Below are positions 25,354 through 31,032 of a DNA stretch of 42,621 nt, piece after piece. The notes under the pieces were generated by a model. That model saw only the letters and a list, made by a program, of their open reading frames with translations. It did no database searches and was not told the origin of the DNA. The stretch is taken from NCBI GenBank assembly GCA_944392595.1, contig CALXXD010000008.1:1-42621 (forward strand). The letters are read 5' to 3'. Origin of the DNA: an uncultured Alphaproteobacteria bacterium (GTDB taxonomy: Bacteria > Pseudomonadota > Alphaproteobacteria > Rs-D84). Every line of letters begins with the position of its first letter. The stretch's first letter is position 1. A program made the position numbers and the translations under genes.

Positions 25354-26280
25354 ATGAAAACTTGTCCTTTTTTTGGCGTATGTGGTGGTTGCAAATATGA
25401 TTTTGCCGCACCCGATTATCGCGCACAAAAATTGTCTTTGATATCAGATTTACCCATAACGGGCGAAGCGGTTTGGATTGCGCCAAATACGCGCAGACGC
25501 GCTGATTTTGCCTTTGCAGATGGTGTGTTTGGATTTTATATGGCACATTCAAAAAATATTGTGCCTGTGCGGAATTGTCCGTTGTTGGTTGATGAAATAA
25601 ATAATTTATTGCCGCAATTGGAATCATTGCCGTGGGGCGGGGCGGGTGCGTGCCTGGTTACGTTATGCGATAATGGGATTGATGTTGCGATTACATCGGC
25701 TGTGCCTTATTTTTCTGGGGAATTCAAATGTGCGTGTGACAAATTAAAAAACGTTATACGCGTTACTTGGAATGAACGCACAGTGATTCAAATTGCAACG
25801 CCCAAGGTAAGTTTTTCTGGGCATTGCGTTGATTATCCCCCAAATGCATTTTTACAGCCAACTGTGCCCAGCGAAAATACATTGCGCGAAATGGTTGTCG
25901 CGGCGGCCGGTCAATCACATCGTGTGGCGGATTTATTTTGTGGATTGGGCAATTTTACATTTGCATTAAATGCAGATGGATTTGATATATCGGGCATCGG
26001 GGTAAAACGTGATTTATTCTCACATCCTTTGACGGTTGGGATGCTGGGGCAGTATGATTGCATTGTGATGGATCCACCGCGGGTGGGCGCGTTTGCCCAG
26101 TGTCGCGAATTGGTTAAAAGTAATGTTAAACGTGTGATTTATATTTCTTGCAATCCGATTACTTGGCGGCGCGATGCAAATGTATTAATCCGTGGTGGTT
26201 TTGAATTAAAATCATTGACGCCCGTCGATCAGTTTGTCGGCAGTGCGCATTGGGAACTGTTTTCAGTATTTGATAAATAA
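25354..26280 (+). CDS. RNA 5-methyluridine methyltransferase, TrmA/RlmC/RlmD family
   Basis: Adds a methyl group to C5 of a uridine in rRNA or tRNA. An iron-sulfur cluster is expected from C4, C10, C13 (CPFFGVCGGC) and C75 (VRNCPLL). FLQPTVPSENTL, the SAM motif VADLFCGLGNFTFAL (about residue 191) and DPPRVGA (about 240) follow. The nucleophile is C266 in YISCNPITW. At 308 residues it lacks an N-terminal TRAM domain and the segment after motif I is shortened (GIGVKRDLFSHPLTV), a form I associate with alphaproteobacterial members. Which uridine is modified cannot be decided. Confidence 0.88.
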   Translation: MKTCPFFGVCGGCKYDFAAPDYRAQKLSLISDLPITGEAVWIAPNTRRRADFAFADGVFGFYMAHSKNIVPVRNCPLLVDEINNLLPQLESLPWGGAGACLVTLCDNGIDVAITSAVPYFSGEFKCACDKLKNVIRVTWNERTVIQIATPKVSFSGHCVDYPPNAFLQPTVPSENTLREMVVAAAGQSHRVADLFCGLGNFTFALNADGFDISGIGVKRDLFSHPLTVGMLGQYDCIVMDPPRVGAFAQCRELVKSNVKRVIYISCNPITWRRDANVLIRGGFELKSLTPVDQFVGSAHWELFSVFDK

Positions 26281-26292
26281 TTTTGGGTAAAT

Positions 26293-26318
26293 AAAAAAAC
26301 GCCGGCGGTTTCCCGCCG
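26293..26318 (-). terminator. terminator of the candidate small RNA
   Basis: GC-rich stem CCGGCGG/CCGCCGG with a short loop, followed on the minus strand by seven T residues (26293-26299). Confidence 0.8.
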
Positions 26319-26486
26319 GTGTTTCCGAATGCCCCGAAAGGAAGGAAAGGAGAAAAAGAAATTGGGCATTCTAAACTAAATTTAAGTGGGGCCCAGAGTC
26401 CAGAGGAGAGAGAATGTAGGAGGGAGTCTGAATCCCTGAACCCCATTTGGGCTTTCGCCCCGTCGCCAGGGTTGCCCCCTTTGACG
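26293..26486 (-). ncRNA. candidate small RNA, about 190 nt, with pyrimidine-rich anti-Shine-Dalgarno loops
   Basis: The 400-base gap between genes carries a complete minus-strand transcription unit: promoter (26493-26521), about 190 bases without a convincing gene, and a strong terminator. Reading the minus strand there is a GGGCGAAAGCCC hairpin. Next is a stem (26387-26391 with 26441-26445, extended by 26399-26403 with 26436-26440) enclosing a UCUCUCUCCUCU stretch. Last comes an eight-base stem (26327-26334 with 26364-26371) displaying a 29-base loop of almost only U and C. The loops are complementary to Shine-Dalgarno sequences, like the so-called cuckoo RNAs of alphaproteobacteria. It does not look like SRP, 6S, tmRNA or RNase P RNA. 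Confidence 0.65.
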
Positions 26487-26492
26487 AATCGA

Positions 26493-26521
26493 AATGTAAT
26501 ACATAATTACTTATTTGTCAA
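26493..26521 (-). promoter_or_regulatory. promoter of the candidate small RNA
   Basis: On the minus strand TTGACA (26516-26521), exactly 17 bases, TACATT (26493-26498). A second TTGACA lies 13 bases upstream (26529-26534). The 23 bases 26512-26534 are identical to the promoter region at 12141-12163. Confidence 0.65.
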
Positions 26522-26680
26522 GTATTTTTGTCAAATTTATTTTTTAGTATCGTTTTTATGAATCAAGTCCTTGATTTTTCGTGGTTTTAGGAAATCGTAC
26601 TTGTTGTCTGTGATTGGGCATTGGAATAAAATCAATATAAAAATTCGGGGAAATCCGAATAAAACCACAGGAGAGAGAAA

Positions 26681-26926
26681 ATGACACATGAAGATGTATG
26701 GCGGGCCATAGAAAGATTTGCGACCGAACATGGCATGTCTTGTTCGGGCTTGGCAAAATGCAGCGGATTGGATCCGACCACATTTAACCGCAGCAAACGT
26801 TGGTCCAAAGAAGGGCAACCGCGTTGGCCATCAACAAACAGCATTTCAAAAATTCTGTCATCGACCGGCGCCAGTATTAATGATTTTACAAAATTCATCG
26901 AACCGCGAAACAAAGAACGTGAATAA
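26681..26926 (+). CDS. small XRE-type helix-turn-helix protein (repressor DNA-binding domain only)
   Basis: An 81-residue protein consisting of one HTH domain: VWRAIERFATEHGMSCSGLAKCSGLDPTTFNRSKRW and the following WPSTNSISKIL. I recognise the family as the N-terminal domain of alphaproteobacterial S24-type repressors, which normally continue into a peptidase-like dimer domain of over 100 residues. Here the gene stops right after the HTH and is followed by a terminator. It may be a natural stand-alone form or a truncation. A strong AGGAGAGAGAA site lies one base before the ATG and is perfectly complementary over 11 bases to the neighbouring small RNA. Confidence 0.75.
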   Translation: MTHEDVWRAIERFATEHGMSCSGLAKCSGLDPTTFNRSKRWSKEGQPRWPSTNSISKILSSTGASINDFTKFIEPRNKERE

Positions 26927-28105: not shown

Positions 28106-28134
28106 TTGACTTTAATGTCAAAATATGATACAAT
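28106..28134 (+). promoter_or_regulatory. strong promoter at the head of the phage-like cluster
   Basis: TTGACT, exactly 17 bases, TACAAT with an upstream TG (TGATACAAT). The -35 overlaps an inverted repeat TTGAC-N6-GTCAA (28106-28121), a possible operator. Transcription would start near 28141. Confidence 0.7.
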
Positions 28135-28140
28135 GATGCG

Positions 28141-28217
28141 CATCAAAGGGAATAATTCTGTCCGCGGGAAACCGGCGGATTTTTTATTGGTCGCGCATTT
28201 TGCGCGACCTTTTTTTA
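28141..28217 (+). ncRNA. short terminated leader RNA or small RNA before the phage-like genes
   Basis: From the promoter above, transcription would run only about 75 bases. It meets two successive hairpins: 28161-28179 (TCCGC...GCGGA, then a T run) and 28189-28209 (GGTCGCGC/GCGCGACC, then seven T). Only readthrough or antitermination would reach the hydrolase gene at 28244. It may be an attenuator or a free small RNA. Confidence 0.55.
28189..28217 (+). terminator. strong intrinsic terminator before the lysis gene
   Basis: Perfect eight-base stem GGTCGCGC/GCGCGACC with a five-base loop, followed by TTTTTTT (28210-28216). Confidence 0.85.
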
Positions 28218-28243
28218 TCAAAAATATTCTGTTGGGGGGGCGC

Positions 28244-28654
28244 ATGCAAATCATGTTAATAAAAAATCCTGATGAATCATTACGCAAAGTATATCAAATC
28301 GCACGGGTGGTTTATGCCGAAACACATGCGGTGTCTTTGCGTGCTGTCGAAGCATTAACATCAATGATTAAAAATTTTGCGATTGCGTCTGGGCATGATG
28401 TATCTGATGTGATAACAGATAAAAATTTGTTTGAATCACTGAATAAAGATTCATCGAATCATGAATTGTTATCTGTTGCGGCGGATAATCGTGGATTTCA
28501 AATGTGCGTGCGTGTTGCGCGTCGTATGATAAATGGCGGGTTGCCAGATTGCTGTTACGGCGCGACAAAATTTCATCATGACGGATATATACCGGGCTGG
28601 GCAACATCGCGTGGTTATATTGCGGACATAGACGGATTATTATTTTATCTGTGA
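28244..28654 (+). CDS. SleB-type cell-wall hydrolase (probable endolysin)
   Basis: A 136-residue protein of the Hydrolase_2/SleB family, which cuts peptidoglycan glycan strands. The family pattern is visible: an early acidic site in ARVVYAETHAVSLRAVEAL (E at about residue 26), a central segment where family members carry NR and QF motifs, and the end block GATKFHHDGYIPGWA. In alphaproteobacterial podovirus-like clusters this gene serves as lysin. A G-run (GGGGGGG) just before the ATG acts as ribosome-binding site. The ATG at 28253 is an alternative start. Lysis would be needed to release particles. Confidence 0.75.
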   Translation: MQIMLIKNPDESLRKVYQIARVVYAETHAVSLRAVEALTSMIKNFAIASGHDVSDVITDKNLFESLNKDSSNHELLSVAADNRGFQMCVRVARRMINGGLPDCCYGATKFHHDGYIPGWATSRGYIADIDGLLFYL

Positions 28655-28660
28655 TAATTA

Positions 28661-28891
28661 ATGGAAAAAATTATGAATAAAATTATCAAAGGCGGATTTT
28701 TATCAGGCCACAGAACTTACATAATATCAGGCATTGGAATATTATCTGCGATTGGCGCGTATATGGTTGGTGACACAGATATATTTACAATGTTGCAATC
28801 AATATTCACATTTGGCGGAATTTATTTTCTGCGTAAATCAAGCGAAACAAAAGGAACAACAAATGGAAAACATTCCAGAAAAATTTCTTAA
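28661..28891 (+). CDS. small membrane protein, holin candidate
   Basis: 76 residues with two short hydrophobic stretches (YIISGIGILSAIGAYMVG and FTMLQSIFTFGGIYFL) and a charged tail. It lies between the lysin and scaffold genes and overlaps the scaffold start by 29 bases. Holins are usually small, with one to three helices and a basic tail, next to the lysin, so the position fits. The sequence itself has no diagnostic motif. Confidence 0.5.
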   Translation: MEKIMNKIIKGGFLSGHRTYIISGIGILSAIGAYMVGDTDIFTMLQSIFTFGGIYFLRKSSETKGTTNGKHSRKIS

Positions 28892-29519
28892 CAAAGACGG
28901 AACTTTGAATACAGGTGCATTATTAAAATCATATTCTGAATTGGAAAAGAAAATAGGTACGATGATATCTGTGCCTGGGGAAGATTCAGATGACGTAACG
29001 CGTGCAAAATTTAATCGTGCGATTGGTGTGCCTGAAAATGCGAATGAATATCCAACAAATGATTTGTTTGATGACGAATCGTTGCGTGAAAAATTTTTAG
29101 AAATTGGATTAACTTCAACCCAAGTTGAAAAAATTTATCAGATTGCAAATGAATTTTTATCACCTGTGATAAATGAATTATTCGACATGCAAAATGAAAC
29201 AAATGCAATAAACGAATTAAAAAAATTTTTTGGTGATGATGAAAAAATGTATGAAGCAATGCGTGCAATAAATTCATTTGGTGAAAAATATTTACCGCGT
29301 GATGCGTTTGATGCTTTGTGCGCGTCACCCCAGGGAATCCGCGGCATATATGCGATGATGCAATCAATCGAACCAACCGTACAAACAGATGATGCGCCAC
29401 AAAAAAATTTAACAGAAAATGATTTGCGTCGTATGATGCGTGATCCAAAATATTGGCGTGATATGGATGAAGAATATGTCAGAAAAATAGAAAACGGATT
29501 TAAAAAATTATATTCATGA
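28863..29519 (+). CDS. capsid assembly scaffolding protein (T7 gp9-like)
   Basis: A 218-residue acidic, mostly helical protein (MENIPEKFLNKDGTLNTGALLKSYSELEKKI...). It begins with the VPEKFLN..G.LN...LLKSYSELE pattern found in scaffolds of T7-like phages and alphaproteobacterial prophages. A C-terminal basic/aromatic end (RKIENGFKKLYS) could bind the capsid subunit. It precedes the capsid gene as scaffolds usually do, although a histone-like gene is interposed. The protein would be lost from mature heads. Confidence 0.75.
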   Translation: MENIPEKFLNKDGTLNTGALLKSYSELEKKIGTMISVPGEDSDDVTRAKFNRAIGVPENANEYPTNDLFDDESLREKFLEIGLTSTQVEKIYQIANEFLSPVINELFDMQNETNAINELKKFFGDDEKMYEAMRAINSFGEKYLPRDAFDALCASPQGIRGIYAMMQSIEPTVQTDDAPQKNLTENDLRRMMRDPKYWRDMDEEYVRKIENGFKKLYS

Positions 29520-29624
29520 TGAAAAAAATTCACTTTCTTCTTTACTATTTTTTTTCTTTCATATAAAATGAAAGTAAGAACAAAAAGTTTTGTTCTATCC
29601 AAAAATAAAATAAAGGAGAGAAGA

Positions 29625-29975
29625 ATGGCATTCACATTCTTGAAGCCAGCCGCCAAGAAAGCCGCCGCGAAAAAGCCAGCGGCAAAACCGGCTGCAAAAA
29701 AAGTTGTCGCGAAAAAACCAGCGGCAAAAAAACCAGTTGCAAAAAAAGTCGTTGCAAAGAAAGCGCCTGCGAAAAAAGTAGCAGTTAAAAAAGCAGCGGT
29801 GAAAAAACCGGTTGCAAAAAAAGTCGTTGCAAAGAAAGCACCTGCGAAAAAAGTAGCAGTTAAAAAAGCAGCGGTGAAAAAACCAGTTGCAAAGAAAGTT
29901 GTTGCAAAAAAAGCACCTGCAAAAAAAACAGTTGCAAAAAAGCCTGTTAAAAAAGCATGTGCAAAAAGAAAATAA
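29625..29975 (+). CDS. histone H1-like Lys/Ala/Pro-rich protein
   Basis: 116 residues, almost entirely K, A, P and V after MAFTFLK. A 25-residue unit ([25 protein letters not shown]) is repeated about two and a half times, mirrored by 75-base DNA repeats. Such sequences resemble eukaryote-like H1 tails and bacterial HC1/AlgP-type DNA-binding proteins, which condense nucleic acid by charge. A strong AAAGGAGAGA site precedes ATG 29625 and a strong terminator follows. It sits between scaffold and capsid genes, which is unusual; it may condense packaged DNA or be an unrelated chromosomal insertion. Confidence 0.75.
29700..29935 (+). repeat. 75-base tandem repeats within the histone-like gene
   Basis: Two nearly identical 75-base units and a partial third, encoding the 25-residue motif described above. 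Such repeats can change in number by slippage or recombination. Confidence 0.7.
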
Positions 29976-29987
29976 TTTTCTGATATA

Positions 29988-30017
29988 AAAATCCCCGGTT
30001 TTCCGGGGATTTTTTTT
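29988..30017 (+). terminator. intrinsic terminator
   Basis: AATCCCCGG and CCGGGGATT arms with a short loop, followed by eight T. Confidence 0.85.
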
Positions 30018-30018
30018 G

Positions 30019-30059
30019 GAAATATTCAGTCAGATTTTTTATGTCTGACTGAATATTTC
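30019..30059. repeat. perfect 16-base inverted repeat
   Basis: GAAATATTCAGTCAGA (30019-30034) and its exact complement (30044-30059) with a nine-base spacer. It lies just after the terminator and about 135 bases before the capsid gene. It may be an RNA processing hairpin or a protein-binding site. Confidence 0.7.
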
Positions 30060-30195
30060 ATTTTGGATAATTCTGAAAAGAACCCAGTATTTTTTTGTAA
30101 TTGTGGCGCATACGTATGCATAACCACATTTGCAAATTTTATTTGCGCAAAATTTATTGCGCGTTTTTCGTTTTATTAAACAAAGGAAATAAAAA

Positions 30196-31032
30196 ATGTC
30201 TGTTTCAATTGACCAGGCCTTTACAAAACAGTTCGAGGCCGAAGTCCATTTGGCATATCAACAAATGGGCACTAAATTGCGTTCGACGGTACGCAGCAAA
30301 TCTGGTGTTATCGGCGCATCCACAACTTTCCAGAAAGTCGGACGTGGTACCGCCAGCACCAAATCGCGTCATGGTATTGTGCCGGTTATGAATTTGAATC
30401 ATGAACCTGTGGAATGTATTTTACAGGATTATTATGCCGGCGATTGGGTTGATGCTTTGGATGAATTAAAAACAAATATCGATGAACGTCGCGTTGTTGC
30501 ATCCGCAGGCGCGTATGCGTTGGGACGTAAAACCGATGAATTAATTACAAATGCAATGAGTGGCGCAACCACATCTGTTGGTGATTACAGCACAGGTTTA
30601 ACCAAAGATTTGATTTTGTCCGCACTGGAAGTCTTGAACGAAAATGATGTCCCAGACGATGGCCGCCGTTTCGCGGTTGTTGGCGTGCATCAGTGGAATG
30701 AATTGCTGTCTATGGACGAATTTGTATCTGCGGATTATGTTGGCGATAATTTGCCATTAATTTCTGGTGGCGCATCGAAAAAATGGTTGGGCATAACATG
30801 GGTTCTGTACAATGATTTGCCTGTGAATTCAACATCTGGGCGCAATTGTTTTATGTATCACGCAACCAGCATCGGACACGCATGTGGGCAAGAGGTGAAA
30901 ACTGATATATCATGGCATGGCGAACGCGCCGCACACTTTATCAGCAACAGTATGTCCCAGGGTGCGGTATTAATTGACGACACAGGCATCGTTTGTATGA
31001 AGTGCAAAGATGTCGATGGCGACAATAATTAA
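30196..31032 (+). CDS. major capsid protein (T7-like/podovirus type)
   Basis: A 278-residue capsid protein expected to have the HK97 fold. I recognise a family common in alphaproteobacterial prophages from SVSIDQAFTKQFEAEVHLAYQQ at the N-terminus, TTFQKVGRGTA, YYAGDWVDALDELKTNIDERRVVASAGAYALGRKTDEL in the middle, VPDDGRRFAVVG and the C-terminal HGERAAHFISNSMSQGAVLID. There is no sign of a protease-cleaved delta domain, consistent with use of a separate scaffold. It has its own AAAGGAA site. No frameshift or decay is seen. Confidence 0.85.
   Translation: MSVSIDQAFTKQFEAEVHLAYQQMGTKLRSTVRSKSGVIGASTTFQKVGRGTASTKSRHGIVPVMNLNHEPVECILQDYYAGDWVDALDELKTNIDERRVVASAGAYALGRKTDELITNAMSGATTSVGDYSTGLTKDLILSALEVLNENDVPDDGRRFAVVGVHQWNELLSMDEFVSADYVGDNLPLISGGASKKWLGITWVLYNDLPVNSTSGRNCFMYHATSIGHACGQEVKTDISWHGERAAHFISNSMSQGAVLIDDTGIVCMKCKDVDGDNN

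Follow-up and report, generated by a model that had tools for sequence, protein, structure and literature searches.

What is encoded on the minus strand between positions 26293 and 26521 of the window, the 42,621-nt stretch of DNA analyzed in this study, where a promoter and a terminator bracket about 190 bases? The preliminary description proposed a new small RNA (sRNA) without a credible gene, and each of the elements on which that proposal relied was recovered. The promoter (26493 to 26521, minus strand) consists of a -35 hexamer, TTGACA (26521 to 26516), separated by 17 nt from a -10 hexamer, TACATT (26498 to 26493); it is kept in 119 of 120 distinct homologous loci, with a spacing of 17 nt in 104. 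The intrinsic terminator (26293 to 26326, minus strand), which corresponds to helix 5 of the covariation alignment, comprises the hairpin CCGGCGGGAAACCGCCGG (26319 to 26302) followed by a T run; in a scan of a 2-kb stretch, few terminator-like sites were as strong. With its start placed, by inference, 7 nt past the -10 hexamer, the predicted transcript extends over approximately 193 nt (about 26293 to 26486, minus strand), an extent drawn from the covariance model matches and the fold z-score; the ORFs that overlap it were all spurious in the ORF check.

A second TTGACA lies 13 nt upstream of the -35 hexamer (26529 to 26534, minus strand), and a doubled TTGAC was present at 102 of the 119 homologous loci that bear the promoter. 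Elsewhere in the window, a threefold TTGACA array (TTGACAAATTAATTGACAAAAATACTTGACAAAT; 12175 to 12141, minus strand) that resembles this doubled form lies upstream of a small Arg/Lys-rich ORF; such arrays are possibly a lineage-specific strong promoter form or an operator. The locus is syntenic. A divergent gene for an 81-amino-acid HTH protein (26681 to 26926, plus strand), which has a weak match to Pfam HTH_26, is preceded by the RBS GGAGAGAGAA at 26670 to 26679 and is itself a possible target, is found no more than 1.5 kb away at 116 of 166 loci; at the same distance limit, a biotin-ligase gene is present at 96 of these loci and a convergent RlmD/TrmA-like uracil methyltransferase gene, which does not belong to the sRNA (here 25354 to 26280, plus strand), at 59. 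In the window, the biotin-ligase gene is immediately adjacent to a set of phage-like genes (28106 to 31029): one may encode a cell-wall hydrolase, another encodes a major capsid protein (Pfam Phage_capsid_2, E = 5e-70), and between the two is a histone-like ORF rich in lysine and alanine (29624 to 29975). This cluster is prophage-like or gene-transfer-agent-like, in a genome of about 1 Mb.

The predicted fold of the sRNA has an energy of -78.4 kcal/mol, compared to a mean of -60.0 kcal/mol for shuffled sequences (z = -4.1), and none of 200 shuffles folded as well. As the preliminary description had claimed, two stems expose pyrimidine loops with CUCC motifs, and both loops are unpaired in the fold. 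The 5' domain (26449 to 26486, minus strand) contains two small, less conserved hairpins and is variable in length, being shortened in some species. Hairpin I (26387 to 26445, minus strand) has a long stem and a 22-nt loop, and the invariant 28-nt sequence AGACUCCCUCCUACAUUCUCUCUCCUCU (26402 to 26429, minus strand) comprises this loop and its loop-closing pairs. Hairpin II (26327 to 26371, minus strand) has an 8-bp stem and a 29-nt loop that contains UUUCUUUUUCUCCUUUCCUUCCUUUC (26336 to 26361, minus strand), the core of which, UCUCCUU(U)CCUU, is conserved throughout the family. The loops carry different motifs and are not repeats of one: loop I reads CUCCCUCCUACAUUCUCUCUCC and loop II reads UCUCCUUUCCUUCC.

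Comparison among sister genomes bore out the stems. In the alignment of 30 species, 97.7% of pair cells held standard pairs, and 13 base pairs (40 cells) had changed on both sides, versus shuffled means of 5.1 +/- 1.3 and 8.3, respectively; none of 500 shuffles attained the observed covariation, and sliding the pairing abolished the signal. In hairpin II, four of the eight pairs had changed on both sides, and 100% of the cells remained paired, with none broken. In loci from outside the genus, both stems, including the long one of hairpin I, are entirely different in sequence and still fold, whereas AGACUCCCUCCUACAUUCUCUCUCCUCU is unchanged. This 28-mer was exact in 119 of 120 distinct loci from many genera, a count that is partly conditioned because most of these loci were found via a 20-nt exact match inside loop I; in contrast, the loci found with the covariance model did not rest on such a match. 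Loop II retained UCUCCUU(U)CCUU in 117 of the 120 loci. Fixed loops on changing stems are what is expected of a molecule that acts by loop pairing, and stems that covary around invariant loops, bracketed by a promoter and a terminator, are the signature of a base-pairing sRNA. These and the following counts span related genomes and species and are not independent samples; nevertheless, the conserved promoter and covarying stems confirm that the locus lies far beyond chance.

The size of the RNA and its strong, conserved promoter would also suit a stable housekeeping RNA, such as 6S, SRP, or tmRNA, that had been overlooked. At gathering score, however, Rfam returned nothing at the sRNA locus (the only matches in the window were two tRNAs elsewhere) or in nine divergent homologous loci, in agreement with the earlier statement that no standard RNA was matched, and the best subthreshold matches were far below their gathering scores. 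One such match, to the ylbH leader on the plus strand (25.6 bits versus a gathering score of 50), spans the terminator and the purine tract read in reverse and was judged to be an artifact. Given also the strong covariation, it is extremely improbable that the locus encodes a known housekeeping RNA or no RNA gene at all.

A covariance model built from the 30 species detected the sRNA in 169 of 201 genomes of the order Rs-D84, which comprises "Candidatus Enterousia" and its relatives, and a nucleotide search placed it in nearly all genomes of the window's genus. Among good-quality genomes of the order, the sRNA was present in 113 of 126 (about 90%), and it was found in 13 of 23 genera. Among the genomes that carry it are those of "Candidatus Enterousia" and MAGs of ruminant, horse, and other origin, and several of the records are labeled Rickettsiales; all except one (168 of 169) belong to the window's own family. 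The lone match in another family, in genome G038, was weak (E = 1.5e-6), with one similar hairpin and no clear terminator. This hairpin (G038:C18:50266-50363, locus L206) has a loop, UUUAUAUUCUCUCUCCUC, similar to loop I and lies downstream of the promoter-like sequence CTTGACAAA; it is possibly a distant relative or a chance resemblance. When a class-wide draw of 385 genomes was searched for the 22-nt pattern of loop I with up to two mismatches, no match was obtained in the 381 alphaproteobacterial genomes outside the genus.

What, then, do the loops recognize? The preliminary description suggested that they could pair with ribosome-binding sites, and a sharper form of this claim holds: loop II complements dnaA start sites and loop I complements the start of a prepilin-like operon, rather than both serving as generic decoys. 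Bases 26336 to 26357 (minus strand) of loop II form 22 contiguous pairs with the RBS of the organism's own dnaA gene (-34.2 kcal/mol, with an opening cost of 3.1). The other 410 TIRs of this genome, sampled from about 440 kb with gene starts set by a simple SD-aware heuristic rule that leans to purine-rich sites, yielded a single outlier, the SIMPL gene (-29.9 kcal/mol), followed by a value of -19.7. When the TIRs of six species, taken from partial stretches of their genomes, were pooled by orthologue, dnaA ranked first among 286 groups for loop II (combined p = 7.8e-6), ahead of the top groups of all 20 shuffled loop II sequences (2e-5 to 4e-4), with SIMPL and then a TPR protein behind it. 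An unbiased scan of all positions in the six-genome stretches likewise returned dnaA as the best nonself match of loop II in genomes G021 and G171.

The most incisive evidence came from two pattern scans for exact complements, one for each loop. Those of loop II were concentrated at the same gene. The complement of the loop II core, GGAAGGAAAGGAG, had 14 nonself copies in 24 genomes, 12 of which were at dnaA start sites, whereas its reversed control did not occur in these genomes. Among the leaders of 30 genomes, GGAAGGAAAGGAGAAA or close variants stood directly before the dnaA start in most Enterousia and in genera g18, g19, g27, and g28; in the last two, the match is kept although DnaA is only 52 to 56% identical to the query. 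Weak matches were observed in G118 (-17.7) and several other genera (-5 to -19). The identity of DnaA is backed by Pfam. Many Enterousia dnaA leaders contain, upstream of the RBS, a further conserved block like GGTGGTTTTTACACTCTTGCGCGGGCAGGAAACTCTTTT (e.g., L373 1380-1500, the dnaA leader on G000:C5, and other dnaA leaders in L364-L384), which is unexplained by the sRNA.

Since the 16S rRNA ends in ...CACCUCCUUUAUAG, the SD sequence is AAAGGAGG, and loop II is predicted to pair with the part of the dnaA leader that directly precedes the start codon, where it would cover the SD. A 22-bp helix within a closed 29-nt loop would be topologically strained, and stem II would therefore have to open. 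Pairing alone leaves the sign of regulation unset, so that the RNA could instead activate or stabilize its targets, or act as a sponge titrated by dnaA mRNA. We regard such roles as distinctly unlikely because the paired segments cover the SD beside the start codon, which is the usual geometry of repression (NfeR1, PMC10746234; EcpR1, PMC4414408) and makes repression the expected sign.

The targets of loop I were resolved by its two halves. In this genome, the 5' half (26413 to 26426, minus strand) is predicted to pair over 14 contiguous bases (-24.6 kcal/mol) with the RBS of the gene that heads a run of three, at a site that costs about 12 kcal/mol to open. The products of the three genes start with type IV prepilin-like segments (GNFLLQALLAL, GASMLEVLLAL, and GSMLVELLMS); the first product matched no Pfam or NCBIfam family, and "prepilin-like" is therefore a reading of sequence. 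The complement of this half, TGTAGGAGGG, occurred at seven nonself sites in 24 genomes, all upstream of the prepilin-like gene and six within about 20 nt of its start (about 43 nt in G180); the exact match was present in only 7 of the 24 genomes. In the all-position scan the prepilin-like gene was the best nonself match of loop I in this genome and in G171, and it was the top orthologue group for loop I (5e-6), yet 2 of 20 shuffles beat it.

The 3' half of loop I (26402 to 26415, minus strand) is complementary to GGAGAGAGAA-type RBSs, and it may pair with those of the divergent HTH gene and, in some species, the SIMPL-domain gene. Of 95 distinct leaders of the divergent HTH gene, 19, representing a subclade, contain GGAGAGAG, which fits this half and is seldom found in other TIRs (0 of the 410 sampled from this genome and 3 of 346 in G021). 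The SIMPL-domain (DUF541) gene (G000:C2:50448-51188) was considered as a main target and kept as secondary only, being inconsistent across species: in this genome its RBS matches loop II by approximately 20 nt (-29.9 to -31.5 kcal/mol), whereas in several other species it is of the GGAGAGAGAA type and fits the 3' half of loop I. It may be a target whose partner loop has switched. The possibility that loop I exactly complements a consensus RBS followed by AUG (CAUUCUCUCUCCU) was also considered and was ruled out, as GGRGRGRGRRTG was found only opposite the sRNA.

It can be argued that an RNA of this type is a generic, cuckoo-like anti-SD molecule that damps many purine-rich RBSs, of which dnaA and the prepilin-like gene are merely the best. 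CUCC is present in both loops, pairing is more stable at TIRs than in gene interiors, and further groups, namely, SIMPL and the TPR protein, scored high for loop II. In bulk, however, loop I paired with TIRs no better than shuffled loops did in either the own-genome or the six-species set, exact complements are concentrated at single genes, and the only place in the genome where GGRGRGRGRRTG occurs is opposite the sRNA; moreover, generic damping would need no 28-nt invariant loop. We therefore consider a generic role unlikely. A second alternative is that the unchanging pyrimidine-rich loops sequester an RNA-binding protein, e.g., a cold-shock protein or S1, instead of pairing with mRNAs. A gene for a CspA-like protein is present, and Hfq homologues were absent from the 2339 ORFs in the partial sampling of six genomes. 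Protein binding does not, however, predict exact complementarity of 10 to 22 nt to orthologous RBSs in many species, and sequestration is very unlikely.

In our assessment, the locus most likely encodes a trans-encoded antisense sRNA that represses dnaA and the prepilin-like operon. The locus, its fold, its conservation, and its complementarity, including the concentration of that complementarity at named genes, are direct results of computation, and they support the interpretation originally offered. It can be envisioned that the two stems display long single-stranded pyrimidine loops that pair with selected RBSs, and that the resulting duplexes would keep the 30S subunit from loading and would probably also favor decay of the mRNA. 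The sRNA would thus probably switch off the translation of dnaA and of the pilus-like operon, and the outcome would be less DnaA, and hence less replication initiation, together with less of a pilus-like surface system. Transcription, the condition of expression, repression, mRNA decay, and a purpose in growth control are the parts of this scheme that we infer.

These predictions are reminiscent of EcpR1 from Sinorhizobium meliloti (Rhizobiales), a repressor of dnaA that acts through the pairing of a loop with the RBS and through decay that depends on RNase E (PMC4414408). Both are alphaproteobacterial trans-acting sRNAs with two stem-loop domains and a conserved loop that pairs, here by prediction, with the dnaA RBS and start (PMC4414408); the corresponding 22-bp pairing is predicted in most Enterousia and two further genera. 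Unlike the loop 1 motif of EcpR1, UCCGCCGCAUCU (PMC4414408), which is absent here, the dnaA loop of this sRNA is UCUCCUUUCCUUCC. The EcpR1 locus lies downstream of divK-pleD, whereas this one lies between the HTH/biotin-ligase and RlmD-like genes, and the second target of EcpR1 is gcrA, whereas here another loop is predicted to address the prepilin-like operon.

The likeness to cuckoo RNAs noted in the preliminary description stood with respect to the way of working. As in alpha-r14/NfeR1 and the cuckoo RNAs, unpaired loops with an ultraconserved anti-SD sequence are carried on stems that diverge; the targets of those RNAs are blocked at the RBS (PMC10746234; PMC3927594), and translational repression by NfeR1 has been experimentally shown (PMC10746234). 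NfeR1 and EcpR1 are both reported to be Hfq independent. The likeness did not extend to sequence: the alpha-r14/NfeR1 and cuckoo RNAs repeat the defining motif CCUCCUCCC in three or four loops, whereas this motif is absent here and two long loops carry different motifs with different predicted targets. The CcsR1 model (RF02791, Rhodobacter), which represents another alphaproteobacterial RNA with a CU-rich anti-SD loop, scored only 13.1 bits against a gathering score of 65.3. NmsR/RcoF of Neisseria (RF02877) similarly has a UUUCUCC anti-SD loop followed by a terminator, but its model match was at chance level (20.7 bits versus 52) and the lineage is unrelated. Because the defining motifs and Rfam models were not matched, the sRNA was not filed under EcpR1 or cuckoo/alpha-r14. 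Among trans-acting sRNAs with anti-SD loops, what is new is the specific predicted targets and the presence of two different loops, each dedicated to conserved targets of its own, in a family of gut bacteria whose genomes are about 1 Mb in size.

The order Rs-D84 consists of uncultured bacteria with reduced genomes for which a symbiotic or parasitic lifestyle has been proposed (PMC12306168). Little is known about regulatory RNAs in uncultured bacteria of a symbiont-like kind whose genomes measure about 1 Mb. Because the targets and the pairing bases are named, a two-plasmid reporter test is feasible without culturing the organism. More broadly, we regard as evenly balanced the proposition that this sRNA is a near-universal, family-wide RNA checkpoint in a reduced-genome lineage, one that would corepress dnaA and a pilus-like system through two dedicated loops and that arose independently of EcpR1. 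The predicted target is the replication initiator, as it is for EcpR1 in the distant Rhizobiales; if the two are independent, they would represent the convergent evolution of RNA control over DnaA.
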